A DNA stretch of 62,502 nucleotides, from the NCBI RefSeq assembly GCF_019649055.1, contig NW_026570519.1:1-62502 (forward strand), read 5' to 3'. Positions 29,419-57,286 of the stretch are shown in pieces. Within the stretch, counting starts at the first letter, position 1. Each line of letters opens with the position of its first letter. Source of the stretch: Paramacrobiotus metropolitanus. Taxonomy: Eukaryota; Tardigrada; Eutardigrada; Parachela; Macrobiotidae. The translations under genes and the position numbers were made by a program. The notes beneath the pieces were generated by a model. It was not told the DNA's origin. It made no database searches and saw only the letters and a list, made by a program, of their open reading frames with translations.

Positions 29419-32400
29419 TCACGAGTAGCCGGCCTCCCCGTAGCTGCCCGGCGGCCTGGGCAGAACACTCTGCTGCACGGCGTCATGAATGGCGCTCTTC
29501 AGCTCCGCTGCTTCCCGCGGAACTGCCAAACGCACAAACAATTTTACCCTTTATACATACAGCCATCGTCATTTCTTATTCATTCACGTAGCGTACCTTC
29601 TTTCCATGCTTGCAAATTCACGCGCGGGAGAAACGGTCCTTTACATGGCACTCTCTCATTTCTGTTACCCAAGAGAAAATACATGTTATTAGAAATTACT
29701 CGTGGTATTAACGTGGTACGTATATAACCCTTGTACCATGTAAGGACCGCTTTGGATAGTGTTACTTACACTAACGGCAATACATGGACGAAGGCGTTGG
29801 GCTGTACAGTCTCTACTTCATCGGAATTATCGCAGATAATCCGGGCTATACTGCTCCTCCTGAGTTCGTAAAGTTGCTCTGCAAAACGTACTTTATATTC
29901 ATAAATAAGACTAACGATAGTATTCCGTTTTTCTTCGGACTGCCACACTGGTAGACAAACAACAAAGTTATTAACGGTAGACCGCTTTAAAGACAGAATG
30001 ATTGTCATACCGGAATTATCAGTCTTCGCTCAGAAGACTTCTATTTTTGCTCCACATAATTATGTCGGTCGGACTGTTACGCATCGTAAAAGTACTAAAA
30101 ACATATTTGCGCTTTTTCGCTATGATATATGGCGGAAAAAGAATAGTATCTTCAATTTTAAACTAGACTCGCTCTCCACCGCTTTGCCAAGGCCGGTACC
30201 CACCTGATGTGAAAGCGTTGGGCTGTACATCGTTCTCGTACCAGAACCGATCGCCGCGCTTCAGATGCACAAACTGTTTGGTCAGCAGACAGGTAAACGT
30301 CGGACCCAGGAGTCCGTCATGCAACGGCTCTTCGGCAATGCCGGCGGGAAACTATCAACATGGTCGAAATTATTTGTCATCGACCAGATTCTTGAATGAC
30401 TGCGACATACGTACCAGATCAATATCGTCTACCGTTCTATAAGAAAGACAAATGTGTTTAATGCAGTATTAATTGGTATTATGGATTCAAATTGCGAAGA
30501 TATTATTTTACTCATAAACCGTCCGGAAGCGTTCGACAACTTCCGCACGCATTACATCCTTAAGGTCATCGAAGGCGTTCACTTTGGCAGTCCACAGAAT
30601 TCCCGCCAGGCGTTGTAAGGGGGCAAACCTGAAATGCATCAGTTTGTTTTCATGGGTACTTCACATCTGTAATGCCGAAGATCGCGCGGGGTTGCCTTTA
30701 CCAACCAAGCACACAGCGGTCAGTCGGTCACTAATTATAAAGGGGCAATGCTGTAAATTTTATAAAACGCTACTAAACTTGAGCAATCCAATATTTCTGA
30801 GCAATAATTTAAATTACAAAAATTTTAAAAAAGTTATTTTACTAGAATATTACTTGGACAGCACAATGCACTGACGAACAGGAAGGAAAAGACGTAATTG
30901 GACCGTTTCGCCCATGCACTACGATCTCATATGCAATCTATAAGAGTAGATTTGCTGTAGTAATTAGGCCGGTACGTCGCATTATGGATAATGCATGCAA
31001 TGAATTATAGGTAATTATGCATTTGACGTCGGCATTAATACTCGTATAAACTGGCAGAGTGTCATTTACATAGATTGTATTATTAATATATGCTATCAGA
31101 CTTGATTAGGGCGTACCGTGATCCCGACCACGCTGAATATTAATCGCCGCCAAATCCACTCCGAACTGATGGGGCTTCGACTCGAATAAGTGCTCGGTGA
31201 TCTCGCTGCTCATGAAGGTATCACGTTTCTGTATGTTATCATTGATCATTCCCAGCAAATACATATCCACCACGCCCGGCTGATACAGCGGATATGGTTT
31301 GAAGAAGGCGTCCCGCAACTGTTTCTGCCCGATGTATTCGTGGTATTTGTTGAAGAAACGGAACCACGACGGGATCAACGTGTGTCCAAATCTGTAGTCA
31401 AACGCTGTATTCAGAAAATTAAAAGGTCACCGGGTGCTCCTTTACTGACCGTAACGCGGCGGTGGCGAAGACGTTGGCGGCGCTAGGATTGACGGTCTTA
31501 TCGTAGCCGCCGTAGAAGCCGGTAGGCAGCGGCAAAAGGTCATTCTGGTACATGACATCCTTGCCGAGCACCAGCGGTAGCCATTCGTTGTAGGTGATGT
31601 GCTGGAGAATGGCGCCGACAATCTTTCGGGCTTCCTGGAATAGTCGTTCATCATCCCAGTGGGCGTTCATATAGTATAGTTCCTCAGCGATGCGGTTGTG
31701 CTCACGCGAGAAGAGGATGTGCATCGTGGCCAAACCTGCATTCACGTTGAAAATATTTTTCATTTTATTGCAAATTTAAACTTTGTTGTACCGCAAATAA
31801 AATGGTTTTAATTTTTTTAGAAGAAACCTGAATGTATTATCATTAATTTTATTTTTTTGCATTGTAAATTGAATCTCTGTAAAAGACAGTTTTTGAATTT
31901 AAAAAAGTATTCAGGTTTTAAAGTCTTTTTTTATTGCGTACTTTAAAAACTAACTTGATGTTAAAAATTATAGCAAGCTGGCAATCAGAGAAACTCGAAC
32001 CAAGATGCGCATTTTTCGTCAAAGTACCGGTATTTTCGTTGACACGACTGTCGCCGGCTCGGAAGCACGGCAGCGATGCGGTAGCATCCGGACAGTCGCC
32101 GGTCTCTGGATCAGGCGGTAAAACATCCTTATGGCAATAATCGACGAAGACCGTCCGCAGTTTGCCGTACTGGTATGTTCGCATATTCTTCATATCGTCA
32201 TAGGTTGATCCGTAAATCTGACTTCCGTCGATGAAACTGGTGAGCTGATTCATTTGTTCGCGCGGCCCTATCATTATATTTGCACACATTATGTGACGCA
32301 GATACCTATTTAAAATTAGATTTTTGACAAATTCAGCCCCAACAAATAAATAATTACTCTCTTTCATCAATATTCTTAAAGCTGAATTATGAATTAAAAT

Positions 32401-35400
32401 TAGAGGAAAAATACCGGGACTAATTGGAATTATGAAATCGTTGCACATTTTACATAAAATATTCCGCGTGACCTTTCATGTACCTAATGCGCATCCGGGC
32501 CGAGGCGCCGCTTCCGATCGTACGAAATTCATACAGCGCAAATTGTATTTTGCATAAAACTGATCCCCAGCCGGAATTTCAATGGGATAACACGCCGGAT
32601 GTCCGGGAATTCCCCAGGGCACCTCGCAGCACTGAATATTAGCTGATTTACCGAAGCCGGTGAGGGTGGTGGTGGGTGTGTGATTTATATCGTGATCCAT
32701 AAACTGCAACAATAAAGTTGAGGTTTCTCGTTGAAGATGTACAAATACGCTGCGGGTGCTATTTATCCAACCTGTCCAAAGTGCATCAGAAGGAGAGTGT
32801 AGTGGCAGTGCGGCCGGTCCACATCCGGATGCATAACGGTGGAAATGAGACGCGCCGACGGCAGGGGTTGCCAGTTACGCCGCGTGCTCGTGGCGATTCG
32901 ATGCCTGCAATTAACTGCAGCATGTCAAACGATAATTCATCTTAATAATATAATTTCTCTTGAACTTTGATTTTCCTAATAAATTTGATTTTCCTAATAA
33001 ATTTGGTGCTGATTAACTTAACTGTTCTAATTAAATACGCTTTTTAATACTTCACAATTAGTTTCCTTAATTTTAATAATTAATTTTAGTATCACATTTT
33101 TTAACCAGTTAATCGTAATTAGCTTATATTATGATTTCGGTTGATCCATTAATGAGTTTGTCAAGCGTTTTGCCATATTTCTATCGAACTGACCGTCGTC
33201 GTACGCCGGTGGTAAAAAATCGTTGGAAAGCCGAAAATGAGCGTCCCCATTCGGGATGATACGGATTATTGCAGAAGCCGTCAATTTCCGGAATCGGCCC
33301 GGTTTGCAGGAACATGCCGGAATAGGCGGTAGCACACAGACGTCTCCCAGCACTGTCCCGTATATACTGATTTGAGGCAGTGCATAATGAATTTGTTCCC
33401 GTGATAGCCGATAACTGTAGAACAACATTTGATGTACAAATATTTATAAATTACCCGATTTCAAACACATTTCATATACAAAAACATATAATAACACTCT
33501 AGTTCCTGTTCAGTCTTAAACTTCAATTAATTTAATTTCAAACTGAATATTTTCTTTAACTCATCTCTCATTTTTACATAGAAGTACTGTATATCGATTT
33601 AATTTAATTATCTAATGATTTGAATATTAGCAAAAATTTTGCCAATTTTGCTGGATTCCCTACTCTTGCGCCAATCCTTTGGAAATGTCGAGAGCGACCA
33701 ATGCCGATCGGGACAGCTGTTTCGCCCTCGTATTAGCCCGCCCCAGTGACTCGTGAATGGACGCGAAGGCGCCGGAGCTATTAGCTTTAAGAAACGCACC
33801 TACAACATATAACAATTACCCAACCAGCACAACATTATGCCGGCATCATATCCACCGGCGCCAATATGCCTTTAACACGGGGGTTAGCGTCTTTACCGGT
33901 TTTGAGCAGTTCCGGTTCAACACGGTTGAGGAGTTGATCGACCCGTTGCAGACTGTGGTCAGCCCGCTCTTTCAGCTCCGTGTACAGGAGGGGCGGCAGC
34001 TCCACCGTGGAGTAGTGAGTGTGCGGATACCTGTACAGAGGATTACACACGGATCGTCACAGTTAGCGACAGAGAGGAAGGGGATTAACAATGCCGGGTG
34101 TCACGCGCAGATGCACCGCTGCGGCCGGCAAACAATGCCCGCAGACAGCCGTCACACACGTAATGCGCCCGAGACGGATTATGCAACAGATAGCGCCGGG
34201 GCTACGGCACACGGGCCACTGCTGCCCGGACAATGGGCCACTGCACACTTCCGCCTTGCCGCCACCGACACTGTAGCGCTGGATTATTATACATCCCATT
34301 ATACGCGAAGGCAATGTCAAAACTGTCTACAGTGAAAATTTAATTGGTAACTGTAATATTCCGAAAATTAAGTACCACCAGGCTTTCTACTATGTACAAT
34401 ACGAGTATACTTCCTGCTGTGAGTATATATCTAGCGAAACAATCCGCTCGATTTTGCGGAAAGTTCGACTAATTCGGGTATCGTATTCGAAACATGACGC
34501 TCTTAATGATCTGTGATAACACCAACGACAGAAGACAAAATGCTTTATTAATTATACCGACATTATACCGGCCAGGCACTGGCTACGCACTTCCGGCATA
34601 AAAAATTTACGTTCCTTTGAAATCCAGCACATAACAGTCTTCCGGCCTTTCCTTTCGAAATCCGTACTTTCCGTTTCCAAAATCCTTCCGTAAATTATAG
34701 GAAATGTGTGTTAACAGTTTAAGAAATGACTTCTGGAGACCGGCAAAAGCTCAGATACACATGTGATTTTTGCACCGGATAATCACATCTGCCTAAATAT
34801 AAGGTTATTATCATACTGCGATTAAAGCAAACTTTTGACTCGTTCTTTTTTTGCAAATAAAATTATTGCACACAAACGTAAAACACTTTCCTGGTGAACG
34901 TCTGAAGTGTCGCCATAACGCATTTAGGGTATGCCAAAATTTAAAAAATTTTCACGTCAAAATTAAAAAACTGTTCCTTCTTTTCGACATTTTGCTTTAA
35001 GTACAAATAAAAACTGTATTTTTATCCCAATTACTGGAAGCGATGAAAAGGTGTACCAAAGGGATTCTGAGGTTTTAAAAACCCCAGTTTCTCAAGAAGT
35101 CATTCTGAAGTCCGCAACGAGGAAGCTGGACAGAAAACCACTGACCTTTCATATACGACTGTGGCGAAGACTGGTACGACGCATGCGCCAGCGGCACATT
35201 AGCCTCCACCGTAATATAATTCACGGAACCGGCGCCGGCACCGGTCGCCCGTCGCCGCCGCCTCCGGGCTTCCCCATCAACGTCTCCACCGGCACCCCAT
35301 TCCCCACGGCAATCGACCGACATTCTGCAGCGGAATATTCCCCACTGCCGGAAGTCCCCGGAAGTGCTGCCATTAGCTCCGGATATGCCCGCAACGTCAA

Positions 35401-35620
35401 ATGACTCCGGCAGTTGATTCAGCTCCCATCACTGTCATTCCTCGGTGGTACTCGTCTTCCCGCGGCCATTCAACGCGGAAATGGTGCTGATGGTGGAGCG
35501 GATGCCGCCCGGGAGGGTGGTCAGGTTGGCGGTAATGGAGCATATTATGCAGGGAAGAAACAACAACACGGAGATCACAGTCAGCGACATGGTGAGAATA
35601 AACTGCGCCGATGCCGGCAT
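29419..35620 (-). CDS. animal haem peroxidase (chorion peroxidase/peroxinectin type), copy 1, with all C-terminal exons
   Basis: Animal haem peroxidase, oxidising substrates with H2O2. The start is an ATG at 35,620 followed by one hydrophobic segment (TVISVLLFLPCIICSI), so type II membrane-anchored or secreted. Exons run leftward: 35,620-35,146; about 34,030-33,833; about 33,798-33,665; about 33,420-33,130 (EIDGFCNNPYHPEWG); about 32,890-32,783 (MHPDVDRP); 32,707-about 32,480 with the distal His (MDHDINHTP, 32,700-32,686); 32,267-about 32,026 ([19 protein letters not shown]); about 31,745-31,440 ([21 protein letters not shown]); about 31,400-31,110 with the proximal His (RFGHTLIPS, near 31,383) and NIQRGRDHG; about 30,628-30,511; 30,442-30,208 (GDRFWYEND); about 29,885-29,775 (ARIICDNSD); last exon to the TGA at 29,419. 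Exon 1 here has several small deletions relative to copy 2, and one T too many in a T-run near 33,216 shifts the frame, so expression of a full protein is uncertain. Confidence 0.85.
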
Positions 35621-37058
35621 GAGCAGGGCTCCGCGCTGCGGCAGTTGCGCCAGTGGGCAATTAATCCGGAAAAATCCGCCAGCAGATCGTCCGTCCGCCC
35701 GCCGGGGTCAATCAGCGTATCATCTCGCACATGTGTGCATCAACGCGCCGGCGGGATTTATTAACAGTTTTCAAACACAGCACTATCTTTAATACAGCGC
35801 ATATATGTTACACAACGTAAACAACCGTCCGCAAATTTAAAGGTCAATCAACGTATCAACGCACCGCCAGGATTTAAATAACAATTTCCCAAACACAGCA
35901 ACACTAACTATTATATATATATATAAAAATAGCAGTCTTTATCGTTAATGTCTATCGACTATCGCATATATATCACACAGTTTAAAAAAACAAGTTTTTC
36001 GTTCAATATACACCGCATATATATCACACACAACGTTTAGTCTGTCCGTTTAAAAATAAAGGTGACTCTTGCGCGGTGCCGGTCAGATGCGAGAGCTGTT
36101 TAACGGTGGACTGATGCGTATGCTGCTTAAAAAAGACAGCGTTGTTCCATCCAGTAGCGTTGTGTTTGTTTCGCGTAATGCTAAGTGGATGGATATGGGG
36201 TTATGATGGTGACAGCCTGACAGTTGTCTCCTCTACGGCGTATTCGCGCAGCATCCACTGAACGGGTCGTTGGAACCCGCTATTATCACCGACCATTTCA
36301 CTTCGCAATTATTACTCTTTCCGCCAACTGTTGCCGAATATGGAATCGTTACCCGGGTTTTGTCATTAACCTTTAAATAATTTTATCAGAGGACAATTGC
36401 CGGCACTTACCGGCACCTTTTCCTAAGTAACCGCAGAACGAACCCGGTTAACCGGTTACCGGGTTGGAGTTCGTGTGAGCAGGATGGTTGAAGAGGGAAA
36501 AATTATAAATTAGTGTGGTGGTGTTTAAAAAAAGATAATTAGCGGGTTGAGATGTATCGTTTACAGCTGTACACGGTGCGCAGCACTTTGTCCGATTATG
36601 CTAATCCCGGAGATAAATTAGCCGGCGATGGTGGTGGTGTCATACACAGCCCAGTCAAGTTCATGGTCAAGTGCGCATCCAACACAACCGAACAATACTC
36701 CATTCACGGCTTCGTACAGAAAACTGCGCGACTGATAACCATTTTGACGCCGCTGAGAGTTTTGACAAATTTACGTCCGGTTGCCGATCGGTTTAATGTT
36801 GCTCAAAAGCTACCGGAAATACGAAAATATTATTATTTTATCGTAACAGAAAACTACAGGTATGTTTGATTTATACGGATAATAAACGAGAGTAGTTTAA
36901 TTTACAGTAGTTTAATTTACTCTGTACGTGTAGTTTTTTTATAATTAATATTTATTATTTTTTTTAATAAGGATTGCAGATTTTGTTTAATTTGTAGCTG
37001 TTATTCCAAGTCGTGTATTACCGGAAATCACTTTTAATCCGACCTTTTAAGCGACGCC
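35621..37058. other. region upstream of peroxidase copy 1
   Basis: Presumed promoter region. It holds ATATATAT strings near 35,910 and a 25-base near-palindrome at 36,441-36,465 (AACCCGG...CCGGGTT). A plus-strand 105-codon frame (36,552-36,869) has no domain, and its frame is not kept in the second copy, so I do not call it a gene. Confidence 0.45.
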
Positions 37059-37066
37059 CTGTAGTA

Positions 37067-37723
37067 TAGAAATGGGCATTCTTCATCCTTATCCTATCCG
37101 GCACTTTTAAAATTATCTGCCCGACCGTTTAATTCTTTGCTACTTATCCTATGGTTATCCGACACTCGGATCCTAGTCTAATCAGATAATTGTCCAAACA
37201 GACAATTTTAACAAAAACAAAAATTCAGACATACGATAGGAGAAAATACTATACCGGGTACAATATCATAATTTTAAGTATCGATAAACTTGAAGTTAAC
37301 GCTAAAACGATGGAACAATGGACTAGTGCAAATACGTGAATCATGTTTCATCACCCTACAAAAAGCAGATACGAAATGCTGCAGTTACGCTTAATATACG
37401 AGGTAGTTGCAGCTTACTTGTTAGCACAAAAAGAAACAACTGCATCATGGTGCTGCGATAATCGTTAGACTTTAATATGTGTTGCTACCGCTTGTAATTC
37501 TTGTAATTTAACAATCTAACAGCGCAGATAAAATAATTTATTTCGATTCTCGGATAAAGTTCGGACAAGCACCAATTATCGACTATCCGAAAGCTACGGG
37601 GCATTATCCTTGTCCCGAACGTTTCGGATAATTATCCTTTATCAGTGAGTTTATCCTATCCGAAATTCGGTTGGATAGGACAAAACGGATATTCCTGATA
37701 TTCCTATCTGATGCCCATTTCTA
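37067..37723. mobile_element. hAT-type MITE, left copy
   Basis: A 13-base terminal inverted repeat, TAGAAATGGGCAT at 37,067-37,079 and its complement at 37,711-37,723, is flanked by 8-base near-identical direct repeats CTGTAGTA (37,059-37,066) and CTGTTGTA (37,724-37,731). The 8-base target duplication and the TIR form fit hAT. The 657-base interior has many subterminal TTATCC/GGATAA motifs in both orientations and no transposase. Part of the segmental duplication. Confidence 0.7.
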
Positions 37724-38380
37724 CTGTTGTATTAGTAAAATGATTTTTTGTATGAGCAGAAATACTGCTGCGCTCAACCGCAGATGGCGCAAGTTTAAAT
37801 ATTATATAGCCTTGAATGCCGGAACTGTTTTCCGTCGCAGTTGCGATTTCCATGGTATATTGCTGGCAGCTTGTCAAAAATGAGCTAATTATGGCGCAAT
37901 ATGTTCCCTTTAATTAGTGCATAACATGTGTGTTTATTGTAATTAGGTGGCCCGAAAGCAGTGCTGAAATCACCTTGATCCAGACGCAGCACCGCGCCGG
38001 CTGTGGGTCAAGTGGACTGAATCAGGCACTGTGACGCGCGGTGATATGTGCTGCTGCTCCAGCGCCGCATTATACTGCCTTCACGCGAGCGTCATCGCAA
38101 ATATTGACCCTCTTGCATAATAATTATTGATTTACCTGTCTAAGATCGCATAGGTAAGTACAATACTCTGTGGGTGCGCACCTGCAATGCACAGTTGCAG
38201 GGATTATTCTGACGCATCCGAGGAAATTAATTACTTACTCGTCCACCGTCATTTCAGAAACACAGCACAATTGGTTGTACCAACAACTACGTTACAAAAT
38301 TAAGCAACGCCGACATTTTGTATACCTGCTCTAAATTGTGTGCACATTATACATTATTCTACATTATACATATTACAACT

Positions 38381-38537
38381 TAGGACAAAATGGTCGCATA
38401 CCCAACATCTCCACATTCAGTACGCATGCAGCGGAGTGCACTGTACGACTGAGTTCAAAATATCCGTTTCATACAAGCGCACTGCACCGCTTGCGTACAG
38501 AATGCTGGGTATGGGGCTATGCGACCATTTAGTCCTA
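38381..38537. repeat. 157-base foldback (imperfect inverted repeat), left copy
   Basis: TAGGACAAAATGGTCGCATA at 38,381-38,400 is matched by its near-complement at 38,518-38,537. The arms continue inward through ACCCAACAT/ATGCTGGGT and ACGCATGCAGCGG/CCGCTTGCGT, so nearly the whole segment folds into a hairpin. It could be a MITE or a hairpin RNA source. Flanking bases show no clear target duplication. Confidence 0.65.
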
Positions 38538-38548
38538 CATTGTATATG

Positions 38549-38576
38549 ATAACATTAACGACATCGTTAATGTTAT
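38549..38576. repeat. perfect 13-base-pair hairpin, left copy
   Basis: ATAACATTAACGA, a two-base loop CA, and TCGTTAATGTTAT. It is an exact palindrome lying 12 bases after the foldback and is kept unchanged in the second copy. Role unknown. Confidence 0.6.
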
Positions 38577-38986
38577 ATCAAGACAGATCGCAATACAGGC
38601 AACCCCACTGAGGGCGGGATTTGCAATGACGAAAGCGCTGAGTAATCCAAATTGCCGAAGAACACCGTAAAAGCCAGAGTTTTTTAAGCTTTTCAAGCTT
38701 ATTTGTGTTCTTTAGTCGTTTTACTCTTTTATTGCAGTTGGGATTTTATTTCTAATATAAAATAAGCAATGGGAAGAGGCAACATGATTAAGTACTGTGC
38801 GGCAACTTACAAAGCGGCTGTTGTAGTTTCTACCGGTATACGGCAAAATTATTACGTACTGCACGAGTTGGTTTTGTTGATTTATTCAAAAGAAACTTTT
38901 CAAAATCTAAGAACAAAATGAAGCAGATACTGAACTGAACAATGTGCAAAATTAAAGAACTAATTGGGACTAATTTACATGGAGAA

Positions 38987-39141
38987 TCTATATAATAATC
39001 GCGTAAGCCTTAATCTTTGTTGAGTCCGTCAGCTCGACGCACGGATCCAAACTGCCGTGACTTCTCTATATAATAATCGCGTAAGCCTTAATCTTTGTTG
39101 AGTCCGTCAGCTCGACGCACGGATCCAAACTGCCGTGACTA
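38987..39141 (+). repeat. 78-base tandem duplication at the Helitron 5' end, left copy
   Basis: Two copies of a unit running from CTATATAATAATCGCG to CCAAACTGCCGTGACT, differing only at the first few bases. The same pair occurs at 54,194-54,349. Confidence 0.85.
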
Positions 39142-40666
39142 TATATCATTCGATAGCTCTTAAAAGTGTAGATTTGCCATCACAAATCAGTTTTTCAAGA
39201 AAAAAGTAAGTTTGAAAGAAACTTCCAAAACTTTCACATACAAAGTCTATGGGAAAAGCTAAGAACCCACCACTGCTAAACCAACCACCCCACCACTGTC
39301 TCAACAGCCAACATGCTTCTTTGACAGTTACGCTTACTGCTGACTGAACTTTACGTTCCATAACAGAAAATATTTCATCGTCTTAATGTACATTTCTCAT
39401 CGAAATTTAGTTTGAGAAAGAAAGCAAAACGAAGGAAAGAAAACAAAATGGCCGCAAAGATTCTGCGACTGTGGGACGGTTCTAAAGTCTGATTTTAAGA
39501 ACGTACCTGACCCCGCAGTAGTTTATTCAGTTTCAGCTAACTACTGTAAGTACCTTCCGGGCGGGCGCGGTTGCCTTTCTTACAGAACTGCCTGCGATTT
39601 AAGGCAATTTTTCTACGTTTTCGTTTTCGGTAGGTAAGACAAGGTGGTGTTCGAGAAAGGCAAACGGGGCAACTTGGAATACGTATTCAAGGTTTGCTTC
39701 GAAGAACAGCAAGCTGTTGTTTGTTTCGCAGGTTACGTGGTGTTTGGATTAAAGAACGGCTGATACATATCAATGCAAATCCAGCTCTCTGTACAAGCCA
39801 TTTGTAAATCATTTCGGTATAAAATCGGGTGGGGTAAAACTGGATGTGGCGCGAATTGTAATATGTGGGTGGAATGCTGCATTGTAAGTAAAGAGGACAA
39901 ATGAATTTTTCAGTTCGCTTGACAGCGTACTAGAAGGCGGCGCCGCGAACAACGCCGTGCTAAGCGCAAGCGGAGCTAGCGGAGCAGCAAGCATGCAAGA
40001 ATTTTGCGTTACCGTTCCCGCTTTTGGAAAAGAGTTAAAAGCGAAGAAGGAAACATAACGAAATGCTTCTTTTCTTATTTATTTAAACTGTGTGGTTGTG
40101 TTCTTTGGTCAAAGACTCAAAGCAATAGTAAAAAAGGAGCAGCGATAGCATTACTCTGTCCGTGTGTTCGGATTGTTAAAATGGGATACAAAGGGCACCA
40201 GTGGTGGTAATTTTCAAATTGGGCTTTCAAGTATAGGTAAACTGTTATCGGATAGTAACGACCCTACAGCTTGAAAAAGCGCAGAATGATAAAAAATGAA
40301 AGGCTTTTGTTCTTATGTTCGTCTTACTCTAAATCTTAAAACGCGCAGAATGAAAAGAAGGGAAGAGGTCAACGTCTACTAAATTACAGAGTCCCTATGC
40401 GGTCCCCTAACTCTAAATGATTGGATAACTGATCTGGAAGTTAATTAATGGACAGGAAACTAATGCAAAATGTTCTCCTATTTGGGCGTAAAATTTCGTA
40501 TTATTTTCAGGTTTAAGGGAAGTCGGCCGGTACATGGTACCAAATTCGTGTACGTGCACGAAAAGTTTCGCTTTCGCGCACTCGCAAATAAAATTTTGTT
40601 TTGGTTTTTGACGTTTTGTAGCCAGAAGATTGTATACACTGGCGTGAAAACCGTTTGTGCGCGCAA

Positions 40667-41046
40667 CATCCGCTTCGGAGAAAATGTTTGTTAGAAAATT
40701 CTAAAAAGGTTAAATGCGTTCAGGTGTACCAAAAGTCTCATTATGGATCGATCTCCCTCAGATTTTGCATGTAAATCCACAACATTACCATGAAGATCGT
40801 TTTTACACCGATCCAGACTTCCACGATTTTTTTCAGATTTTAAAATGAACTTTAAAATTTTTGAAATTCATTTTAAAATTTGAAAAACATGCTAGAACAG
40901 TGGATCCGTGTCAAAACGATCTTCATGGTTACGTGCATTTACATGCAAAGTTCGAAAGGGATCGGTCCATAATGAGACTTTTGGTACACCTGAACGCATT
41001 TAACCTTTTTGGAATTTTCTAACAGCCATAACTCCCGAAGCGGATG
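40667..41046. repeat. 380-base inverted repeat within the Helitron-like element, left copy
   Basis: Arms of about 165 bases start CATCCGCTTCGG (40,667) and end CCGAAGCGGATG (41,046). Inner matches include AAGGTTAAATGCGTTCAGGT and GTACCAAAAGTCTCATTATG with their complements. The spacer is rich in TTTTAAAATT. Possibly a separate foldback inserted in the element. Confidence 0.8.
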
Positions 41047-41132
41047 TACTAATTTAATTTAATTTAATTTTGCACTAGGTTATGATTTGTCCATCGCATA
41101 TAATTATTCCGCGCAATTTGCGGGTCAACTAG

Positions 41133-41667
41133 TAATGATATAATCACGTATCGGTGATTTAATATGCAACATCACAAAGGGGAAATTATAAAAAAAATAA
41201 CGGGAAATTGATTCTAAGTCATGCACGTTACACATTTAAAGGTTTATTTTACTTCTAAAAATAGTGGAAGTTAATACGCATATTTTGCAGTTCGAATCAC
41301 ATTTAACAGAAACAGAAAAGGGGCAAACCGATTTTCCCAGCATTTTACTATAGCCGCGCTAATATGCGAGCTACTCTTGCGATGACGTAATGAGTCAGTG
41401 GTATTGCTTTATTGAGACCTGCCCTGGTCATATATATGTCGACAACAATATGGAGATCCTTCTAGGTTTTTTTAAAACAAGTGAGAATGGAGCGGAATTT
41501 TCAGTTTTCACCATCGGACAATTTTGTTTGGCTGTTTACACTCTTTAGAGTTACTAGCGGCTTAGATTGATATACCTCACCGCCAACGGTGAGCGGCATT
41601 CACACGAAAACATGCAGCGGTGTGACAGTGACTGACTGACTGTCGGCAAAAAAATGAGTCAAAATGG
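41133..41667. other. end of the left duplication copy
   Basis: No gene. Contains ATATATATG near 41,430 and GTGACTGACTGACTGTCGGC just before the boundary with the retrotransposon. Confidence 0.5.
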
Positions 41668-41806
41668 GTTGGCTGATGGATTGCTAGCGTGATAGGGAAA
41701 ATAGGTCAAGACGAGTATCCCATTACAATAGTGCAGTCTAGATAGAGAGGCCAAGAGATTGCGTCTACCTAATTTAACATCGATTAGCAAGCAAATCGTC
41801 CTTTAA
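41668..41806 (-). repeat. terminal direct repeat, 3' end of the retrotransposon
   Basis: 139 bases from GTTGGCTGATGGATTGCTAG to GCAAATCGTCCTTTAA; no difference from 46,102-46,240 by eye. Confidence 0.9.
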
Positions 41807-42001
41807 ATTCGGTTAGCCGCGGTATTGTTGTTTGTTTGTGGACGGTAGCGAGTAAGCGGGAACGACAGCAGTGTTGCGGGTTTTTGAGAGAGAACAGGTC
41901 GGCATAATTGGGCATATGCGAAATCGAAGTCGGAGCAGGCGGACCTTCCGACAACGACTTTCCGATATCCCATTTGTGCCCGACTGCCCCAAACAAAACC
42001 G

Positions 42002-42979: not shown

Positions 42980-44874
42980 GGATCCGGACGTTCCGACGCT
43001 GTTGGTACGAGCGCTCGGAATCTGCTTTGCTGAAAACGAGATAGGGAGTCAGCAATTGCGTTATTAACACCGCGTATATGCTTTATGGTAAAAGTCATAT
43101 TAGCGCAGGCAGCGGTCTTTAACATGCGGCGCATGAGGTCTAACACGCCAGCGTTGGTTGAGCGTAGATTCTCCCAGGCCAGGGTGGCGCCTTCGTTGTC
43201 GCAGTGGAAGATGACCCGCTTCCCTTGCAGTTTAGTGCCCCAAACAATCAAGCTGAGGAGTATCGGTATCAGCTCAAGGTACTCAATGCATGGCTTCCGC
43301 TGGATAATCCACGGTGGCCAGCGCAGTTGAAACCATGACCCTTGAAAATATGCACCAAGCCCGAGAGTTCCCGACGCGTCTGTGTAAAGGTCAAGGACGT
43401 CGGATCTTGTCCAGTCCGGCTGGATGAAGGACGCAGTGCCGTTCCAGGCTGGAAGGAATTCTTTCCACCATCCCAGATCCTTACGGAATTCGCCGTTGAG
43501 AGCGATGACCTTTTCGTGGCGGTTGTCGGTTAGCAGGGCGATCATTCGTCGGGTAAATAGACGGCTCGCTGGGACACATTTGGTGGCAAACGTGAGTGTT
43601 CCGATAAGGCTCTGGAGCTGCTGCTTGGTGCAGTGGTCACGGTTACTCCATTCTTCCAGCGCTTCCTCGATGCTCTGACGTTTATCGTCGGGAAGGCTAA
43701 GGGTCTGTCGGACAGAGTCCAGCCGGATACCCAGGAACGTCAGCTGAGTCGCGGGTCCTTCGGTTTTGTCATGTGCCAAAGGGACCCCGAGTTCACTGCA
43801 CGTCCGAGTCATGGTGGACATCAGTGTGCTACACTGAATACTTCCAGGTTTTCCAAGAAAGAGGTAGTCGTCGACGTAGTGGAGCATGCTGAATAGACCG
43901 GTGCGGTTCGAGACGATCCAGTGAATTGCGCCAGCAAATTGCTCGAACACGTACGGCGACGCCCTACACCCGAAAGGTAACACTACATCGAAGTAAAACT
44001 CACCGTTCCACTGATAGCCGAGGAGATTCCACTCCGCCGGGCGTACCGGTATCAGTCGGAAGGCTGATTTTACATCCATTTTAGCCATGAGTGCGCCTCT
44101 GCCGAGTTCCGTTAGGATGGATACTGCGTGGTCAACGGTGCAATATACCAACGGAAGTTGCGTGACGTCAATGTAATCGTTTACACTGTCGTCGTGCGGC
44201 TGGGATAAGTCCAGGATGGTTCGAATGCTGCCGTCTTTCTTCGGTCGCGCGCCAAGGGCGTTGCAGACAAAGTGCGGCAGGGGTGGGTCGGGAAATGGAC
44301 CGATGGTATGGCCGGCATCGACCTCTTTCCGTATGGTGCGCGTAACCGCAGCGTGGTGGTTGCGTGTCGAGGCGGCGTTTGGTGTGGAGCGTGCTTTCTG
44401 GGGACCATTGTAGTAGATAGTGCAACCGTTTGTAAGTGTATTAGATATGAATGATGTTAATGTGGAATCCGGATGTTGGGCGAGCAGTCTGGCAAAGGCG
44501 CTAATTCGTAGCGGTGTGTTCGCCTTTGCCAGCACTGTCACTTCTTTATTTATCCAGTTTTGGGCAAGTGGCCGTCCGATGCTTGCGGTCCCCACACCTG
44601 GCGCAGGCATGGACTCTCCCGGCGCGGCAAGGCGTTGGGCAGTTTCCGTAATTATAGTTGCGGCAGATTTCCCCGTCTGCGGCGGGAGTGGCACGAAAGG
44701 GCTGCCCATATCCCGGTTGACCTTTCCGCGGTGCGGGGCAGCTGCTGATGTAATGGTCTGTCCCTCCGCAGTTTCGGCAGCGATCGTCTTTCTGCTTTGG
44801 CTTTTCCGGTCGCGGCGACGATTCGCGTTCGACGTACGATGCGTTCTGGATGCACTCAATGTACGTATCTTCAT
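42925..44874 (-). CDS. retrotransposon reverse transcriptase-RNase H (649 residues)
   Basis: Replicates the element. After a basic N-terminal region, the RT domain shows LGARPKKDGSIRTILDLS, LMAKMDVKSAFRLIPV, the LPFGCRASPYVF segment and the catalytic YVDD box (residue about 333), then LTFLGIRLD. RNase H follows with its acidic residues in YTDASGTLG (about residue 497), YLELIPI, CDNEGA and NAIADSLSR. All catalytic acids are kept. The frame is uninterrupted. It overlaps the upstream gag frame, so it is probably made by frameshifting or re-initiation. Confidence 0.92.
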   Translation of the reverse strand: MKIRTLSASRTHRTSNANRRRDRKSQSRKTIAAETAEGQTITSAAAPHRGKVNRDMGSPFVPLPPQTGKSAATIITETAQRLAAPGESMPAPGVGTASIGRPLAQNWINKEVTVLAKANTPLRISAFARLLAQHPDSTLTSFISNTLTNGCTIYYNGPQKARSTPNAASTRNHHAAVTRTIRKEVDAGHTIGPFPDPPLPHFVCNALGARPKKDGSIRTILDLSQPHDDSVNDYIDVTQLPLVYCTVDHAVSILTELGRGALMAKMDVKSAFRLIPVRPAEWNLLGYQWNGEFYFDVVLPFGCRASPYVFEQFAGAIHWIVSNRTGLFSMLHYVDDYLFLGKPGSIQCSTLMSTMTRTCSELGVPLAHDKTEGPATQLTFLGIRLDSVRQTLSLPDDKRQSIEEALEEWSNRDHCTKQQLQSLIGTLTFATKCVPASRLFTRRMIALLTDNRHEKVIALNGEFRKDLGWWKEFLPAWNGTASFIQPDWTRSDVLDLYTDASGTLGLGAYFQGSWFQLRWPPWIIQRKPCIEYLELIPILLSLIVWGTKLQGKRVIFHCDNEGATLAWENLRSTNAGVLDLMRRMLKTAACANMTFTIKHIRGVNNAIADSLSRFQQSRFRALVPTASERPDPCPDIFPQLLEAYSARAA

Positions 44875-45073
44875 GTTGATGAGTCCATTGGTCGAAATCG
44901 TACGGATGTCCGGTCATGTGTGCGCGCGGAACTGCCGATCGTACTCGAGCCAGTTGGCGGTCGGAACCCCACGCTCGACGTACGACGCAATTATGTCCAT
45001 GTACTTGTAGAAGCGGGTGCTTAGTTCCGGTGCGATGTGTGAGAGCGGTAACTGGCAAACACGCCGAAGGCAC
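44546..45073 (-). CDS. gag C-terminal part with zinc knuckles
   Basis: Nucleic-acid binding half of Gag. It contains CRNCGGTDHYISSC, a CCHC knuckle, and a second cysteine/histidine cluster (CRNYNYGNC...HACARCGDRKHRTATC), a pattern typical of DIRS-order Gag proteins. A sensible sequence upstream (APELSTRFYKYMDIIASYVE) lies in a third frame between the two gag frames, so the protein needs shifts near 45,040 and near 44,930. The ATG given by the open frame is therefore probably not the true start. Confidence 0.7.
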   Translation of the reverse strand: MPSACLPVTALTHRTGTKHPLLQVHGHNCVVRRAWGSDRQLARVRSAVPRAHMTGHPYDFDQWTHQHEDTYIECIQNASYVERESSPRPEKPKQKDDRCRNCGGTDHYISSCPAPRKGQPGYGQPFRATPAADGEICRNYNYGNCPTPCRAGRVHACARCGDRKHRTATCPKLDK

Positions 45074-45869
45074 GCATCCATGATGTGAAGCAGGTAATCC
45101 GAACTTTCCCGTCCTCCGGCTTAATGGTGACCTTTCCGTTATCGAACACCATTTTGGATTCCAGTTTCTTTGGTTTTTCGACGCGGTTCTTTAGCAGGAG
45201 TAAGTCAAGATCAATGTATTCAGTGTGGTCGAGCAGCTTCTTCACGAGCTTCTTGTCCAGCGACGGAAAATGGTGTGGAAAGGGAGGAATGGCTGCGTTA
45301 CCGGCGGCAGTTCCCCGCAGAGGCCCCAGCCGGCTGAAAACGTCTGGACGTCTCCCAACGTGCTCTCGGGCCGGCAAGCGTACTGGTAGTGTGTCCGATA
45401 ATTCACTGCTAGCAGATGATTGCGAACTGCTACGCTTACCTTTTTCTTGACTGCGTTTGCGCTTGCGGGTAGTGGAGTGTCCGTTGTGATCAGTCTGGTG
45501 CACGATTCTTCCGAAGTCGTCACCAATCTGGATCTGCAGGTTGGAGGAAGGGGACAATGGTCGAGGTGCTGAAGGATCTGTAACTTGTTCCGGTGCTGAT
45601 GGCGCTAGAACAGGCTCCGGTGCTGGCGGTGGTGGCTGTACCGGTGGTGGGGGAGGAGGTGCTAGACGCTCCATTGTGGCGAGAATTTTATCCAGCTGTT
45701 CCTGGTGCCTTTTCTGCTGCTGCGCGAGCGAATGCACCGTCGGTTCCGGGGCTTCCGCGTCGCTCGCTGTGGTGGGGGGCTTACTGGCGGCGGTAGTCCG
45801 TTTCGCTCTGGTGGACGTCACGGGTGCGCTTTTCGCTGGCTGCCGCCCTCTGTTACCACGTCCATTCAT
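45021..45869 (-). CDS. gag N-terminal part (282 residues)
   Basis: Starts with ATG at 45,869 (MNGRGNRGRQPAKSAP). A Thr/Ala/Pro-rich region with a helical stretch (LAQQQKRHQEQLDKILATME) and a polyproline run is followed by Ser/Arg-rich sequence and a more ordered end (LLDHTEYIDLDLLLLKNRV, WMRAFGVFASY). It stops at 45,021 in what seems to be a shifted frame. It is the first coding region after the right terminal repeat. Confidence 0.7.
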   Translation of the reverse strand: MNGRGNRGRQPAKSAPVTSTRAKRTTAASKPPTTASDAEAPEPTVHSLAQQQKRHQEQLDKILATMERLAPPPPPPVQPPPPAPEPVLAPSAPEQVTDPSAPRPLSPSSNLQIQIGDDFGRIVHQTDHNGHSTTRKRKRSQEKGKRSSSQSSASSELSDTLPVRLPAREHVGRRPDVFSRLGPLRGTAAGNAAIPPFPHHFPSLDKKLVKKLLDHTEYIDLDLLLLKNRVEKPKKLESKMVFDNGKVTIKPEDGKVRITCFTSWMRAFGVFASYRSHTSHRN

Positions 45870-46101
45870 TCTCGGAGTGTGAAAGAGATAATAGCGTTAA
45901 ATTCGCCGCTCGAGATAATCGGATGTTAGTGTGGGGGATCAGGGGGATCAGGAGTTTCTTCTGCTAAAGGTCACGAAGTACTTGACTGATGTGCTATAGC
46001 TTTAGGTGCTGTGTGCAAAACATCGAGCAGTTAGTCAAGTAATCAGGTCGGAGAAAATTTTCGACTGAAAGTAACATCAATGCGGTTGTGAGCATTAGAC
46101 A

Positions 46102-46240
46102 GTTGGCTGATGGATTGCTAGCGTGATAGGGAAAATAGGTCAAGACGAGTATCCCATTACAATAGTGCAGTCTAGATAGAGAGGCCAAGAGATTGCGTCT
46201 ACCTAATTTAACATCGATTAGCAAGCAAATCGTCCTTTAA
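46102..46240 (-). repeat. terminal direct repeat, 5' end of the retrotransposon
   Basis: Same 139 bases as 41,668-41,806. The next base (46,241) starts the second copy of the segmental duplication. 45,870-46,101 between this repeat and gag is a noncoding leader. Confidence 0.9.
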
Positions 46241-49200
46241 TATAACGCTGTATCAGACTTGATTGGGCGTACCGTGATCCCGACCACGCTGAATATTAAT
46301 CGCCGCCAAATCCACTCGAACGGTGGGGCTTCGACTCGAATAAGTGCTCGGTTGATCTCGCTGCTCGCTGAAGGTATCACGTTTCTGTATGTTATCATTG
46401 ATCATTCCCAGCAAATACATATCCACCCACGCCCGGCTGATACAGCGGATATGGTTTGAAGAAGGCGTCCCGCTGTTTCTGCGATGTATTCGTGGTATTT
46501 GTTGAAGAAACGGAACCTACGACGGGATCAACGTGTCCAAATCTGTAGTCAAACGCTGTATTCAGAAAATTAAAAAGGTCTGGTGCTCCTTTACTGACCG
46601 TAACGCGGCGGTGGCGAAGACGTTGGCGGCGCTAGGATTGACGGTCTTATCGTAGCCGCCGTAGAAGCCGGTAGGCAGCAAAGGTCATTCTGGTACATGA
46701 CATCCTTGCCGAGCACCAGCGGTAGCCATTCGTTGTAGGTGATGTGCTGGAGAATGGCGCCGACAATCTTTCGGGCTTCCTGGAATAGTCGTTCATCATC
46801 CCAGTGGGCGTTCATATAGTATAGTTCTCAGCGATGCGGTTGTGCTCACGCGAGAAGAGGATGCATCGTAATGGAAACCTGCATTCACGTTGAAAATATT
46901 TTTCATTTTATTGCAAATTTAAACTTTGTTGTACCGCAAATAAAATGGTTTAATTTTTTAGAAGAAACCTGAATGTATTATCATTAATTTTATTTTTTTG
47001 CATTGTAAATTGAATCTCTGTAAAAGACAGTTTTGAATTTAAAAAGTATTCAGGTTTTAAAGTCTTTTTTTATTGCGTACTTTAAAAAACTAACGATGTT
47101 AAAATTATAGCAAGCTGGCAATCAGAGAAACTCGAACCAAGATGCGCATTTTTCGTCAAAGTACCGGTATTTTCGTTGACACGACTGTCGCCGGCTCGGA
47201 AGCACGGCAGCGATGCGGTAGCATCGGACAGTCGCCGGTCTCTGGATCAGGCGGTAAAACATCCTTATGGCAATAATCGACGAAGACCGTCCGCAGTTTG
47301 CCGTACTGGTATGTTCGCATATTCTTCATATCGTCATAGGTTGATCCGTAAATCTGACTTCCGTCGATGAAACTGGTGAGCTGATTCATTTGTTCGCGCG
47401 GCCTATCATTATATTTGCACACATTATGTGACGCAGATACCTATTTAAAATTAGATTTTTGACAAATTCAGCCCCAACAAATAAATAATTACTCTCTTTC
47501 ATCAATATTCTTAAAGCTGAATTATGAATTAAAATTAGAGGAAAAATACCGGGACTAATTGGAATTATGAAATCGTTGCACATTTTACATAAAATATTCC
47601 GCGTGACCTTTCATGTACCTAATGCGCATCCGGGCCGAGGCGCCGCTTCCGATCGTACGAAATTCATACAGCGCAAATTGTATTTTGCATAAAACTGATC
47701 CCCAGCCGGAATTTCAATGGGATAACACGCCGGATGTCCGGAATTCCCCAGGGCACCTCGCAGCACTGAATATTAGCTGATTTACCGAAGCCGGTGAGGG
47801 TGGTGGTGGGTGTGTGATTTATATCGTGATCCATAAACTGCAACAATAAAGTTGAGGTTTCTCGTTGAAGATGTACAAATACGCTGCGGGTGCTATTTAT
47901 CCAACCTGTCCAAAGTGCATCAGAAGGAGAGTGTAGTGGCAGTGCGGCCGGTCCACATCCGGATGCATAACGGTGGATATGAGGCGCGCCGACGGCAGTG
48001 GTTGCCACTTACGCCGCGTGCGTGGCGATTCGATGCCTGCAATTAACTGCAGCATGTCAAACGATAATTCATCTTAATAATATAATTTCTCTTGAACTTT
48101 GATTTTCCTAATAAATTTGATTTTCCTAATAAATTTGGTGCTGATTAACTTAACTGTTCTAATTAAATACGCTTTTAATACTTCACAATTAGTTTCCCTT
48201 AATTTTTAATAATTAATTTTAGTATCACATTTTAACCAGTTAATCGTAATTAGCTTATATTATGATTTCGGTTGATCCATTAATGAGTTTGTCAAGCGTT
48301 TTGCCATATTTCTATCGAACTGACCGTCGTCGTACGCCGGTGGTAAAAAATCGTTGGAAAGCCGAAAATGAGCGTCCCCATTCGGGATGATACGGATTAT
48401 TGCAGAAGCCGTCAATTTCCGGAATCGGCCCGGTTTGCAGGAACATGCCGGAATAGGCGGTAGCACACAGACGTCTCCAGCACTGTCCCGTATATACTGA
48501 TTTGAGGCAGTGCATAATGAATTTGTTCCCGTGATAGCCGATAACTGTAGAACAACATTTGATGTACAAATATTTATAAATTACCCGATTTCAAACACAT
48601 TTCATATACAAAACATATAATAACACTCTAGTTCCTGTTCAGTCTTAAACTTCAATTAATTTAATTTCAAACTGAATATTTTCTTTAACTCATCTCTCAT
48701 TTTTACATAGAAGTACTGTATATCGATTTAATTTAATTATCTAATGATTTGAATATTAGCAAAAATTTTGCCAATTTTGCTGGATTCCCTACTCTTGCGC
48801 CAATCCTTTGGAAATGTCGAGAGCGACCAATGCCGATCGGGACAGCTGTTTCGCCCTCGTATTAGCCCGCCCCAGTGACTCGTGAATGGACGCGAAGGCG
48901 CCGGAGCTATTAGCTTTAAGAAACGCACCTACAATATATAACAATTACACAACCAGCACAACATTATGCCGGCATCGTATCCACCGGCGCCAATATGCCT
49001 TTAACACGGGGGTTAGCGTCTTTACCGGTTTTGAGCAGTTCCGGTTCAACACGGTTGAGGAGTTGATCGACCCGTTGCAGACTGTGGTCAGCCCGCTCTT
49101 TCAGCTCCGTGTACAGGAGGGGCGGCAGCTCCACCGTGGAGTAGTGAGTGTGCGGATACCTGTACAGAGGATTACACACGGATCGTCACAGTTAGCGACA

Positions 49201-50762
49201 GAGAGGAAGGGATTAACAATGCCGGGTGTCACGCGCAGATGCACCGCTGCGGCCGGCAAACAATGCCTGCAGACAGCCGTCACACGTAATGCGCCCGAGA
49301 CGGATTATGCAACAGATAGCGCCGGGGCTACGGCACGTGCCTGCCCGGGACAATGGGCCACTGCACACTTCCGCCTTGCCGCCACCGACACTGTAGCGCT
49401 GGATTATTATACATCCCATTATACGCGAAGGCAATGTCAAAACTGTCTACAGTGAAAATTTAATTGGTAACTAATATTCCGAAAATTAAGTACCACCAGG
49501 CTTTCTACTATGTACAATACGAGTATACTTCCTGCTGTGAGTATATATCTAGCGAAACAATCCGCTCGATTTTGCGGAAAGTTCGACTAATTCGGGTATC
49601 GTATTCGAAACATGACGCTCTTAATGATCTGTGATAACACCAACGACAGAAGACAAAATGCTTTATTAATTATACCGACATTATACCGGCCAGGCACTGG
49701 CACTACGCACTTCCGGCATAAAAAATTTACGTTCCTTTGAAATCCAGCACATAACAGTCTTCCGTCCTTTCCTTTCGAAATCCGTACTTTCCGTTTCAAA
49801 ATCCTTTCCGTAAATTATAGGAAATGTTGTGTTAACAGTTTAAGAAATCAACTTCTGAGACCGGCAAAAGCTCAGATACACACTGTGATTTTTGCCGGCC
49901 GGATACCTATGCATCTGCCTAAAATATAAGGTTATTATCATACTGCGATTAAAGCAAACTTTTGACTCGTTCTTTTTTTGCAAATAAAATTATTGCACAC
50001 AAACGTAAAACACTTTCCTGGTGAACGTCTGAAGTGTCGCCATAACGCATTTAGGGTATGCCAAAATTTAAAAAATTTTCACGTCAAAATTAAAAAACTG
50101 TTCCTTCTTTTCGACATTTTGCTTTAAGTACAAATAAAAACTGTATTTTTATCCCAATTACTGGAAGCGATGAAAAGGTGTACCAAAGGGATTCTGAGGT
50201 TTTAAAAAAACCCCAGTTTCTCAAGAAGTCATTTCTGGAAGTCCGCAACGAGGAAGCTGGACAGAAAAACCACTGACCTTTTCATATACGACTGTGGCGA
50301 AGACTGGTACGACGCATGCGCCAGCGGCACATTAGCCTCCACCGTAATATAATTCACGGAACCGGCGCCGGCACCGGTCGCCCCCGTCGCCGCCGCCTCC
50401 GGCTTCCCCATCAACGTCTCCACCGGCACCCCATTCCCCACGGCAATCGACCGGACATTCTGCAGCGGAATATTCCCCACTTCCGCCGGAAGTCCCCCCG
50501 GAAGTGCCGCCATTAGCTCCGGATATGCCCGCAACGTCAAATGACTCGGCAGTTGATTCAGCTCCCCATCACTGTCATTCCTCGGTGGGGCACTCGTCTT
50601 CCCGCGGCCATTCAACGCGGAAATGGTGCTGATGGTGGAGCGGATGCCGCCCGGGAGGGTAGTCAGGTTGGCGGTAATGGAACATATTATGCAGGGAAGA
50701 AACAACAACACGGAGATCACAGTCAGCGACATGGTGAGAATAAACTGCGCCGATGCCGGCAT
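46241..50762 (-). pseudogene. animal haem peroxidase, copy 2, truncated at the 3' end
   Basis: Copy of the peroxidase gene from its start (ATG at 50,762) to just after the proximal-His/NIQRGRDHG exon. The C-terminal exons (GDRFWYEND, ARIICDNSD and the last exon) are missing because the duplication ends at the retrotransposon. Exon 1 is intact here (start, TM segment and at least 170 residues), unlike copy 1. Frame damage elsewhere: a base lost after the DPETGDC segment near 47,225, two bases lost in the TGTG run at the proximal His near 46,531, several small losses near 46,320-46,500, and the same extra T near 48,344 as in copy 1. It cannot make a complete enzyme. It might still be transcribed from a duplicated promoter. 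Confidence 0.85.
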
Positions 50763-53575: not shown

Positions 53576-53732
53576 TAGGACAAAATGGTCGCATACCCAA
53601 CATCTCCACATTCAGTACGCATGCAGCGGAGTGCACTGTACGACTGAGTTCAAAATATCCGTTTCATACAAGCGCACTGCACCGCTTGCGTACAGAATGC
53701 TGGGTATGGGGCTATGCGACCATTTAGTCCTA
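53576..53732. repeat. 157-base foldback, right copy
   Basis: Same length as the left copy with no change seen by eye. The perfect 28-base hairpin follows at 53,748-53,775. Confidence 0.65.
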
Positions 53733-54193
53733 CATTGTACATGTAATATAACATTAACGACATCGTTAATGTTATATCAAGGCAGATCGCAATACAGGCA
53801 ACCCCACTGAGGGCGGGATTTGCAATGACGAAAGCGCTAGAGTAATCCAAATTGCCGAAGAACACCGTAAAAGCCAGAGTTTTTTAAGCTTTTCAAGCTT
53901 ATTTGTGTTCTTTAGTCGTTTTTACTCTTTTATTGCAGTTGGGATTTTATTTCTAATATAAAATAAGCAATGGGAAGAGGCAACATGATTAAGTACTGTG
54001 CGGCAACTTGCAAAGCGGCTGTTGGCAACTTAGTTTCTACCGGTATACGGCAAAATTATTACGTACTGCACGAGTTGGTTTTGTTGATTTATTCCAAAGA
54101 AACTTTTCAAAATCTAAGAACAAAATGAAGCAGATACTGAACTGAACAATGTGCAAAATTAAAGAACTAATTGGGACTAATTTACATGGAGAA

Positions 54194-56359: not shown

Positions 56360-57286
56360 TACCGAGATATAATCACGTATCGGTGATTTAATATGAACAG
56401 TTGCACACAGTACCGCACACTGCATTCGTATGGGGAAATTATAAAAAAAAATAACGGGAAATTGATTCTAAGTCATGCACGTTACACATTTAAAGGTTTA
56501 TTTTACTTCTAAAAATAGTGGAAGTTAATACGCATATTTTGCAGTTCGAATCACATTTAACAGAAACAGAAAAAGGGGGCAAACCGATTTTCCCAGCATT
56601 TTACTATAGCCGCGCTAATATGCGAGCTACTCTTGCGATGACGTAATGAGTCAGTGGTATTGCTTTATTGAGACCTGCCCTGGTCATATATATGTCGACA
56701 ACAATATGGAGATCCTTCTAGGTTTTTTTAAAACAAGTGAGAATGGAGCGGAATTTTCAGTTTTCACCATCGGACAATTTTGTTTGGCTGTTTACACTCT
56801 TTAGAGTTACTAGCGGCTTAGATTGATATACCTCACCGCCAACGGGTGAGCGGCATTCACACGAAAACATGCAGCGGTGTGACAGTGACTGACTGACTGT
56901 CGGCAAAAAATGAGTCAAAATGCACCAATGTTCAAGATCACGTTTCTTCTGCAGTGTCAAATGTGCACCGAATTCTTTTCACTGTTGACGCAATTTTATG
57001 AATTGTCTCATTTCCTGCTATCGCTGAGTCATAAACTGTTGGTAGATTTGAAACTGTTGGTTGATATTGAACTTCTCCACATATCGTGATTTTCTTTCGC
57101 CTTTTACTAAAGAAAACCATGTGGAGGAGCCGCTATGAGCCGTATTAAATTAGCCGCTATGAGCCGTAGACTTTAGGTGCGTTTTGATGGTTCTGCTGTC
57201 TGTGCTGCTTACCTCGGACTGCGGCACATGTGCTATGTAATTGCGGTCTCCATCCGCAGGTTGACAATCTCGATTCTCGTACAGAT
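56360..57286. other. end of the duplication and 5' flank of the BTB gene
   Basis: Right duplication boundary at 56,922, then unique sequence. A CATCCGCAG acceptor-like signal at 57,252-57,260 lies 26 bases before the chosen ATG, so a noncoding or short coding first exon upstream is possible. No TATA box seen. Confidence 0.45.

Follow-up and report, generated by a model that had tools for sequence, protein, structure and literature searches.

A 4.57-kb tyrosine recombinase (YR) retrotransposon, putatively of the Ngaro type, lies precisely between two direct copies of a 10.6-kb segment in the genome of Paramacrobiotus metropolitanus, and we are inclined to think that the insertion of the element itself made this duplication, in one event. 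The window, that is, the whole stretch of 62,502 bp that was analyzed, is a whole short contig (C299:1-62502) of the assembly searched (169.8 Mb in 533 contigs); element copies elsewhere are designated C1, C34, and so on. The layout can be written L-S-E-S-R, where L and R are the left and right flanks, S the segment, and E the element, and the sequenced animals are probably polymorphic for this allele. The original prediction had proposed a direct 10.6-kb duplication with a retrotransposon precisely between the copies, which BLASTN comparison of the window with itself upheld; the identification as a YR retrotransposon was supported by Pfam matches of the reverse transcriptase (RT) and YR ORFs, and the outer edges at 31,083 and 56,922 indeed hold no element. 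The features of the locus are as follows.

30199..32709, minus strand: animal haem peroxidase gene, with PF03098 matches at 30199-30351, 31109-31396, 31443-31748, 32020-32274, and 32482-32709
31083..31090: landing site T, TTAATATA, with a TTAA core, as read from the empty allele on C109 and a comparison of element ends
31083..41666: segment copy 1 (S1), joined to the left flank without interruption; the landing site is seamless and the C109 allele crosses 31083 without a break
34360..49480: noisy block (right part of S1, element, left part of S2), the segment parts of which carry most of the indel noise; boundaries estimated
41667: extra base G at the S1/element junction, found neither in the segment copies nor in the element as read from other copies; no microhomology
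41668..46240, minus strand: putative Ngaro-type YR retrotransposon, A1-gag-RT-YR-B1-A2(partial), 4.57 kb, 92% identical to the nearest copy
41668..41806, minus strand: partial second A repeat (A2), 139 of 224 bp, a truncated and noncanonical sense-3' end; B2 absent
41803..41989, minus strand: B1 repeat, sharing TTAA with A2 at the internal A2/B1 junction
42002..42979, minus strand: tyrosine recombinase ORF, 325 aa (Pfam PF13495 and PF00589, E about 5e-6)
42925..44874, minus strand: reverse transcriptase ORF, 649 aa (Pfam PF00078, 1.8e-13)
44546..45869, minus strand: gag-like region of two overlapping ORFs (45021-45869; 44546-45073, with zinc-knuckle matches under the cut-offs)
46017..46240, minus strand: A1 repeat, 224 bp, the canonical sense-5' end, joined at the landing site TTAA
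46237..56922: segment copy 2 (S2), running on into the right flank (BLASTN self-comparison)
46262..47871, minus strand: second, partial peroxidase copy, with PF03098 matches at 46262-46681, 46672-46827, 47228-47428, and 47617-47871

The two segment copies (31083-41666 and 46237-56922; 10,584 and 10,686 bp) share 96.9% identity with 77 mismatches and 252 gap positions in the BLASTN alignment. Alignment by MAFFT gives 153 mismatches and 124 gap events totaling 234 bases, and chance is no concern for a match of 10.7 kb. As TTAA is common to the element end and the segment start, the alignment of S2 begins at 46237, and bases 46237-46240 are counted twice, as the last four of the element and the first four of the segment. 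The junctions had been described as exact to the base; the element does lie exactly between the copies, but the G at 41667 belongs to neither and the TTAA to both. We read the S1/element junction at 41667 as end-joined, with one extra base and zero microhomology. Other repeats are visible in the window. A repeat of ~535 bp at 40513-41047, and the matching part of S2, match themselves on the opposite strand at 83%; some thirty places in the genome match this repeat on both strands at about 72-90%, and it is probably a foldback or MITE-like family. A tandem 76- to 78-bp unit occurs in both segment copies (38987-39140 and 54194-54349). The left flank carries a direct repeat of ~180 bp (11919-12093 and 13932-14110, 93%); a further pair lies at 13845 and 14140.

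C299 can be aligned in parallel with C109 between about 311,809 and 260,411, in descending coordinates, and is apparently an alternative haplotype of it. C109 carries the segment once and lacks the element, and its sequence reads through an intact landing site with TTATTAATATA. The ancestral state was therefore most likely single-copy and element-free, as far as the two alleles can tell. The sequence TTAATATA is found at 31083 and likewise in the element-free C109 allele, so it represents the landing site and not a repair scar. It had been taken as a microhomology indicating end joining at the left boundary; this interpretation was dropped, since the bases were already there in the empty allele, and the end-joined junction is the one at 41667. 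Identity between C299 and C109 is 96-97% in the left part and, from ~34.3 kb of the window on, 73-94% in pieces. This abrupt drop, from about 34300 (C109:277244 downward), may mark a haplotype block, introgression, or paralogy boundary.

The landing site lies in the peroxidase gene: exon matches flank it, running from the left flank into S1, and the site itself falls between exon matches. The gene spanning the site is uninterrupted in S1. S2 holds only the segment-side part, which is cut off on the element side and has stops in two of its four matches; these broken frames may be sequence noise.

Several independent copies elsewhere end at the right-hand end base of the window element or within a few bases of it. 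Among the first 13 relatives cut out, in window orientation, seven start with TTAAATTC (the B repeat) and three with variants of it, two are truncated at this side (C1 and C34), and one begins within the coding region (C85); 11 of the 13 end with some form of CGTCCTTTAA (the A repeat). Complete relatives show the order B2 - spacer - A2 - B1 - ORFs - A1. The window element starts 139 bp before its A2/B1 junction, so the rest of A2 and the whole of B2 are missing, and the two 139-bp repeats at its ends (41668-41806 and 46102-46240) are identical. Because A2 is cut, B2 is missing, and the A2/B1 junction GTCCTTTAAATTCGG is internal, the left junction does not look like the product of a recombinase.

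We assign the element to the Ngaro type, a classification that rests on domain matches and repeat structure. Its RT is of retrotransposon type (PF00078). The YR ORF scores 27.3 bits with PF13495 (cut-off 27) and 26.8 bits with PF00589, just below the cut-off of 27.1. By eye we also spotted in it residues that we take to be the R, HxxR, and Y of the tyrosine recombinase motif, and the RNase H part of the RT ORF was recognized by eye only. No methyltransferase domain, the feature that separates Ngaro from DIRS/PAT, was matched in Pfam up to E = 1 in the four ORFs scanned. Passages of PMC8547959 describe Ngaro elements with split direct repeats. The corresponding arrangement A1-ORFs-B1-A2-B2 is found in relatives, complete in C153, C79, C106, C52, C157, C58, C31b, C13, C68, and C275. 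The window copy departs from this norm in lacking B2 and part of A2 and in having a 10.6-kb duplication at its sides. Its terminal repeats are direct and not inverted, which, with the missing methyltransferase match, sets it apart from DIRS1-like elements. Ngaro-like RT matches are abundant genome-wide (of 861 first-look candidates, 68 were scored, and the listing gives 70 matches), and many of those listed have uninterrupted frames. Bases 601-1100 of C263:40966-42665 form a stand-alone B - spacer - A mini-element without ORFs, laid out like the B2-A2 module and maybe a nonautonomous derivative. In C21, an extra B unit of ~190 bp, identical to its own B2, directly follows A1 and reads as a tandem or nested insertion.

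The same anatomy recurs at three other copies, C1, C34, and C7a. C1, whose left end is cut in B2, is associated with a gap-free direct duplication of 1,204 bp at 99.6% identity; the duplicated stretch lies in a dispersed repeat with eight further matches at 77-84%, well below the identity between the two C1 copies. C34 has a truncated A2 and a 58/58-bp duplication, with just two copies of it within the fetched stretch. C7a, a member of another family that shares 66% identity with the window element, has a B2 short by 47 bp and a 40/40-bp duplication; its near-identical sisters C106, C52, C157, and C58 have an intact B2 and no duplication. In all four cases, including the window, the duplicated stretch runs from the A1 junction to the truncated end, and the left duplicate retains the whole landing site (TTAA in the window, C1, and C7a; TTATA in C34). 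Microhomology at the truncated-end junction is 1 bp in C1, 1 bp in C34, and 2 bp in C7a; the window has one extra base instead. With lengths of 40, 58, 1,204, and about 10,600 bp, these duplications do not have the fixed short length of classical target site duplications from a staggered cut. Nor does the window copy show the canonical ends and absence of duplication beyond the core that ordinary YR integration leaves.

We examined this association of truncation with duplication in 45 copies, the window and 44 others that were cut out. Eight have a truncated sense-3' end and a readable right side (window, C1, C34, C7a, C179, C39, C85, and C233). Twenty-eight, whose left end opens with a full B repeat, be it B2 or B1, were considered intact: 14 of them are C27, C150, C153, C79, C123, C48, C263, C106, C52, C157, C58, C31, C154, and C56; the next 11 are C31b, C13, C93, C68, C58b, C77, C89, C123b, C62, C145, and C275; and the last three are C43, C7b, and C8. 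Nine were left out: C41, C103, C60, C65, C29, and C131, where one end was not placed, C21 because an additional B unit follows A1, C10 because its duplication reads as an old tandem repeat, and C52b for an uncertain right end. The intact class includes some oddities: C153 and C123 have two to three extra bases ahead of the B repeat; the A end stops some bases short in C48, C154, C43, and C7b; deletions inside the element occur in C8, C48, and C123; and C263 has no ORFs. At the right junction of C79, beside A1, is a small-scale patchwork of repeats that includes a 12-base piece of the left flank and looks like templated filler. A further 18 copies were chosen from the upper part of the RT match list before their flanks were viewed, some of them containing a stop; C73, C14, C32, C3, C40, C195, a second C21, and a second C1 place were passed over on that list.

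An abutting duplication of at least 20 bp is present in four of the eight truncated copies (window, C1, C34, and C7a) and in none of the 28 intact ones (Fisher p = 0.0012, a value that serves only as a guide because the first cases prompted the test and the copies share ancestry, so that the counts are not independent). The value rises to p = 0.014 if two short matches at intact ends are counted as duplications, namely 10 bp including the core in C123b and 16 bp within a tandem array in C153. A first count of four out of five truncated copies (p = 1.2e-4) predates the testing of C39, C85, and C233. The four truncated copies with no abutting duplication are C179, whose B1 is cut by about 49 bp, and these three, which lack roughly 0.65 kb (C39), 2.4 kb (C85), and 3.7 kb (C233) of the sense-3' side and may be products of later deletion, a reading made after the fact. 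The genome-wide search with right flanks covered the first 25 of the 28 intact copies listed above together with C179, C39, C85, C233, and C52b; for C43, C7b, and C8 the duplication test was made on fetched flanks only. Among the matches listed for the flanks of these 25 intact copies and of C179, C39, C85, and C233, none is a direct upstream copy on the same contig. The right flank of C123b has a direct copy downstream (88%), and those of C93 and C179 have inverted copies on their own contigs; the right flank of C179 has a second copy ~55 kb off, in opposite orientation. That of C93 lies in a repeat that numerous contigs share, frequently as inverted pairs separated by a few hundred bases, and the C93 element seems to have landed within such a repeat. 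C10 was rejected as an additional case (625 bp, 82%), since it reads as an old tandem repeat in a different register; repeat-unit sequence goes on at both sides of its element.

The distribution of indels bears on the reality of the structure. In the left 3.2 kb of the segment, 22 deletions relative to C109 are private to S2 and one to S1; at 34849-36712 the numbers are 20 for S1 and one for S2, and at 37803-38149 four and zero. Private substitutions number 32 in S2 and 10 in S1 in the left 3.2 kb, and 16 in S2 and 15 in S1 at 34849-36712. A single change point near 34,360 accounts for 99 of the 124 pairwise indels, the best of 2,000 label shuffles reaching 91. The segment sequence thus adds up to one clean copy (left part of S1, right part of S2) and one noisy copy surrounding the element. 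In the element itself (41803-46240), comparison with four relatives revealed one private deletion, seven private insertions, and 246 private substitutions. We read the noise as reflecting lower read depth over the element junctions, polishing reads being drawn to the clean parts; the low-depth structure would be either a minor allele in the pool or an assembly product. As the indel noise sits in the element-proximal parts of both copies, few reads probably stand behind the window allele. If so, part of the apparent 3% difference between S1 and S2 is sequence error and does not give the true age of the copies. According to passages of PMC8277472, the assembly of Paramacrobiotus sp. TYO, since named P. 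metropolitanus (PMC11191345), if it is the same source, was made from ~3,000 pooled animals with ONT R9.4 reads, Canu, and HaploMerger2, and its authors suspected concatenation in reads >1 Mb and discarded those.

It is thus conceivable, though we consider it unlikely, that no chromosome carries L-S-E-S-R and that the assembler worked low-copy molecules into the contig, be they a minor L-E-S-R haplotype, an extrachromosomal circle, or nanopore reads that had been concatenated. The private deletions, almost wholly confined to the block around the element (left in S2, right in S1), the single change point with its fit above all 2,000 shuffles, and, given a common source, the pooled animals and suspected read concatenation of PMC8277472 point in this direction. 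A switch of haplotypes by the assembler inside E would likewise yield L-S-E-S-R from L-E-S-R and L-S-E-R. The caution originally voiced about haplotypes and misjoins was warranted, the noise around the element leaving room for a misjoin. On the other hand, the S1/element junction offers an assembler no homology to overlap, and the anatomy recurs at C1, C34, and C7a, the C1 duplication being free of indels. The original prediction had found attractive the re-insertion of a circle. A circle of element and segment derived from L-E-S-R would enter the element-free homolog by homologous recombination in the segment, which does predict L-S-E-S-R with no outer elements, and passages of PMC3266345 mention a rolling-circle intermediate proposed for DIRS1-like elements. 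But this takes two steps, homologous re-entry through the 40 or 58 bp of C7a and C34 is implausible, and no contig with the element alone at the landing site is among the best candidates listed; we regard it as improbable.

Recombination between elements had been set aside because the outer edges are empty. This ground is not valid, since a crossover between L-E-S-R and L-S-E-R gives exactly L-S-E-S-R; what weighs against such a crossover is the truncated left end. If two polymorphic insertions, sitting at opposite ends of the segment on different homologs, had undergone unequal crossover, both should have canonical ends, but the left end is a truncated A2 repeat, for which reason a simple crossover between two canonical elements was dropped; the scenario also calls for two insertions separated by 10.6 kb, and none of the contigs listed carries either of them. 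We give this explanation very little weight. Still less do we credit the idea that the segment was already tandemly duplicated and that the element hit the junction of the two units exactly. C10, where an element sits in an apparently pre-existing tandem repeat of 82% identity, offers a model for it, in a different register. This idea, also raised originally, was abandoned, as the edges would have to coincide, TTAA falling on the junction to the base: it explains neither why the segment starts exactly at the canonical element end nor the truncated end and the three parallel cases. Insertion of the element as the maker of the duplication is favored because these three other end-damaged copies share the layout at a smaller scale.

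From the observed junctions and the partial coupling of truncation with duplication, we infer an order of steps, a template, and the enzymes involved. The YR would join the sense-5' end of the element (A1) to the TTAA target in the peroxidase gene. The second end would stay unjoined, its free sense-3' end being trimmed into A2, and the chromosome end of the left flank would become a one-ended break. Beyond the landing site, this end would be lengthened by 10.6 kb copied from an intact template, for which the sister chromatid, the homolog, and the displaced strand are candidates. The extended end would then be joined to the cut element end, at the junction without homology and with one extra base described above. 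The product carries, in this order, left flank, segment, truncated element, segment, and right flank, and has no element at its outer edges. Tandem duplications of about 10 kb arise by fork restart in BRCA1-deficient cells, where a broken end is extended by copying and then end joined; they share copying and end joining with the route proposed here and differ in that they are not initiated by an element.

To our knowledge, the integration of YR retrotransposons is known mainly from element anatomy. DIRS1-like elements, which are related, integrate with no target site duplication according to passages of PMC3266345, in contrast to the 10.6-kb duplication at the window element. In titles and abstracts retrieved for Ngaro with TTAA or tandem duplication, and for DIRS with flanking direct repeats, we found no report of such duplications, which is not proof of their absence, and the text "target site" does not occur in PMC3783388, PMC6681497, and PMC9210276. 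Precedents come from another element class. Passages of PMC5223499 report L1 inserts with long flanking duplications in NER-deficient cells, with values up to 6,765 bp; as in the window, one end coincides with the site of the enzyme itself, and the insert is flanked by a direct duplication that can reach several kilobases. L1 uses target-primed reverse transcription from an endonuclease nick, whereas the window element has a precise sense-5' end at a YR-type core and a truncated sense-3' end. In cancer, a 22.6-Mb tandem duplication with a LINE-1 was attributed to sister chromatid bridging (PMC7058536). This case resembles the window in having a single element at the duplication junction and differs in its size, its somatic origin, and the lack of a YR. 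The L1 cases are precedents for insert-linked duplications from kilobases to megabases.

More tentatively, and with less than even confidence, we propose that YR retrotransposons have a second, half-canonical route of integration. The recombinase would join only their sense-5' end, at a TTAA-like core, and the rest would be completed by break-induced host copying and end joining, giving truncated elements between duplications of tens of bases to >10 kb and generating segmental and gene duplications. The coupling of a truncated sense-3' end with duplication would reveal which end joins first, and it would show that host repair can come to the rescue when the second integration step fails. If true, the half-canonical route spares one complete copy of the gene that is hit, and a simple route to gene duplication would follow.
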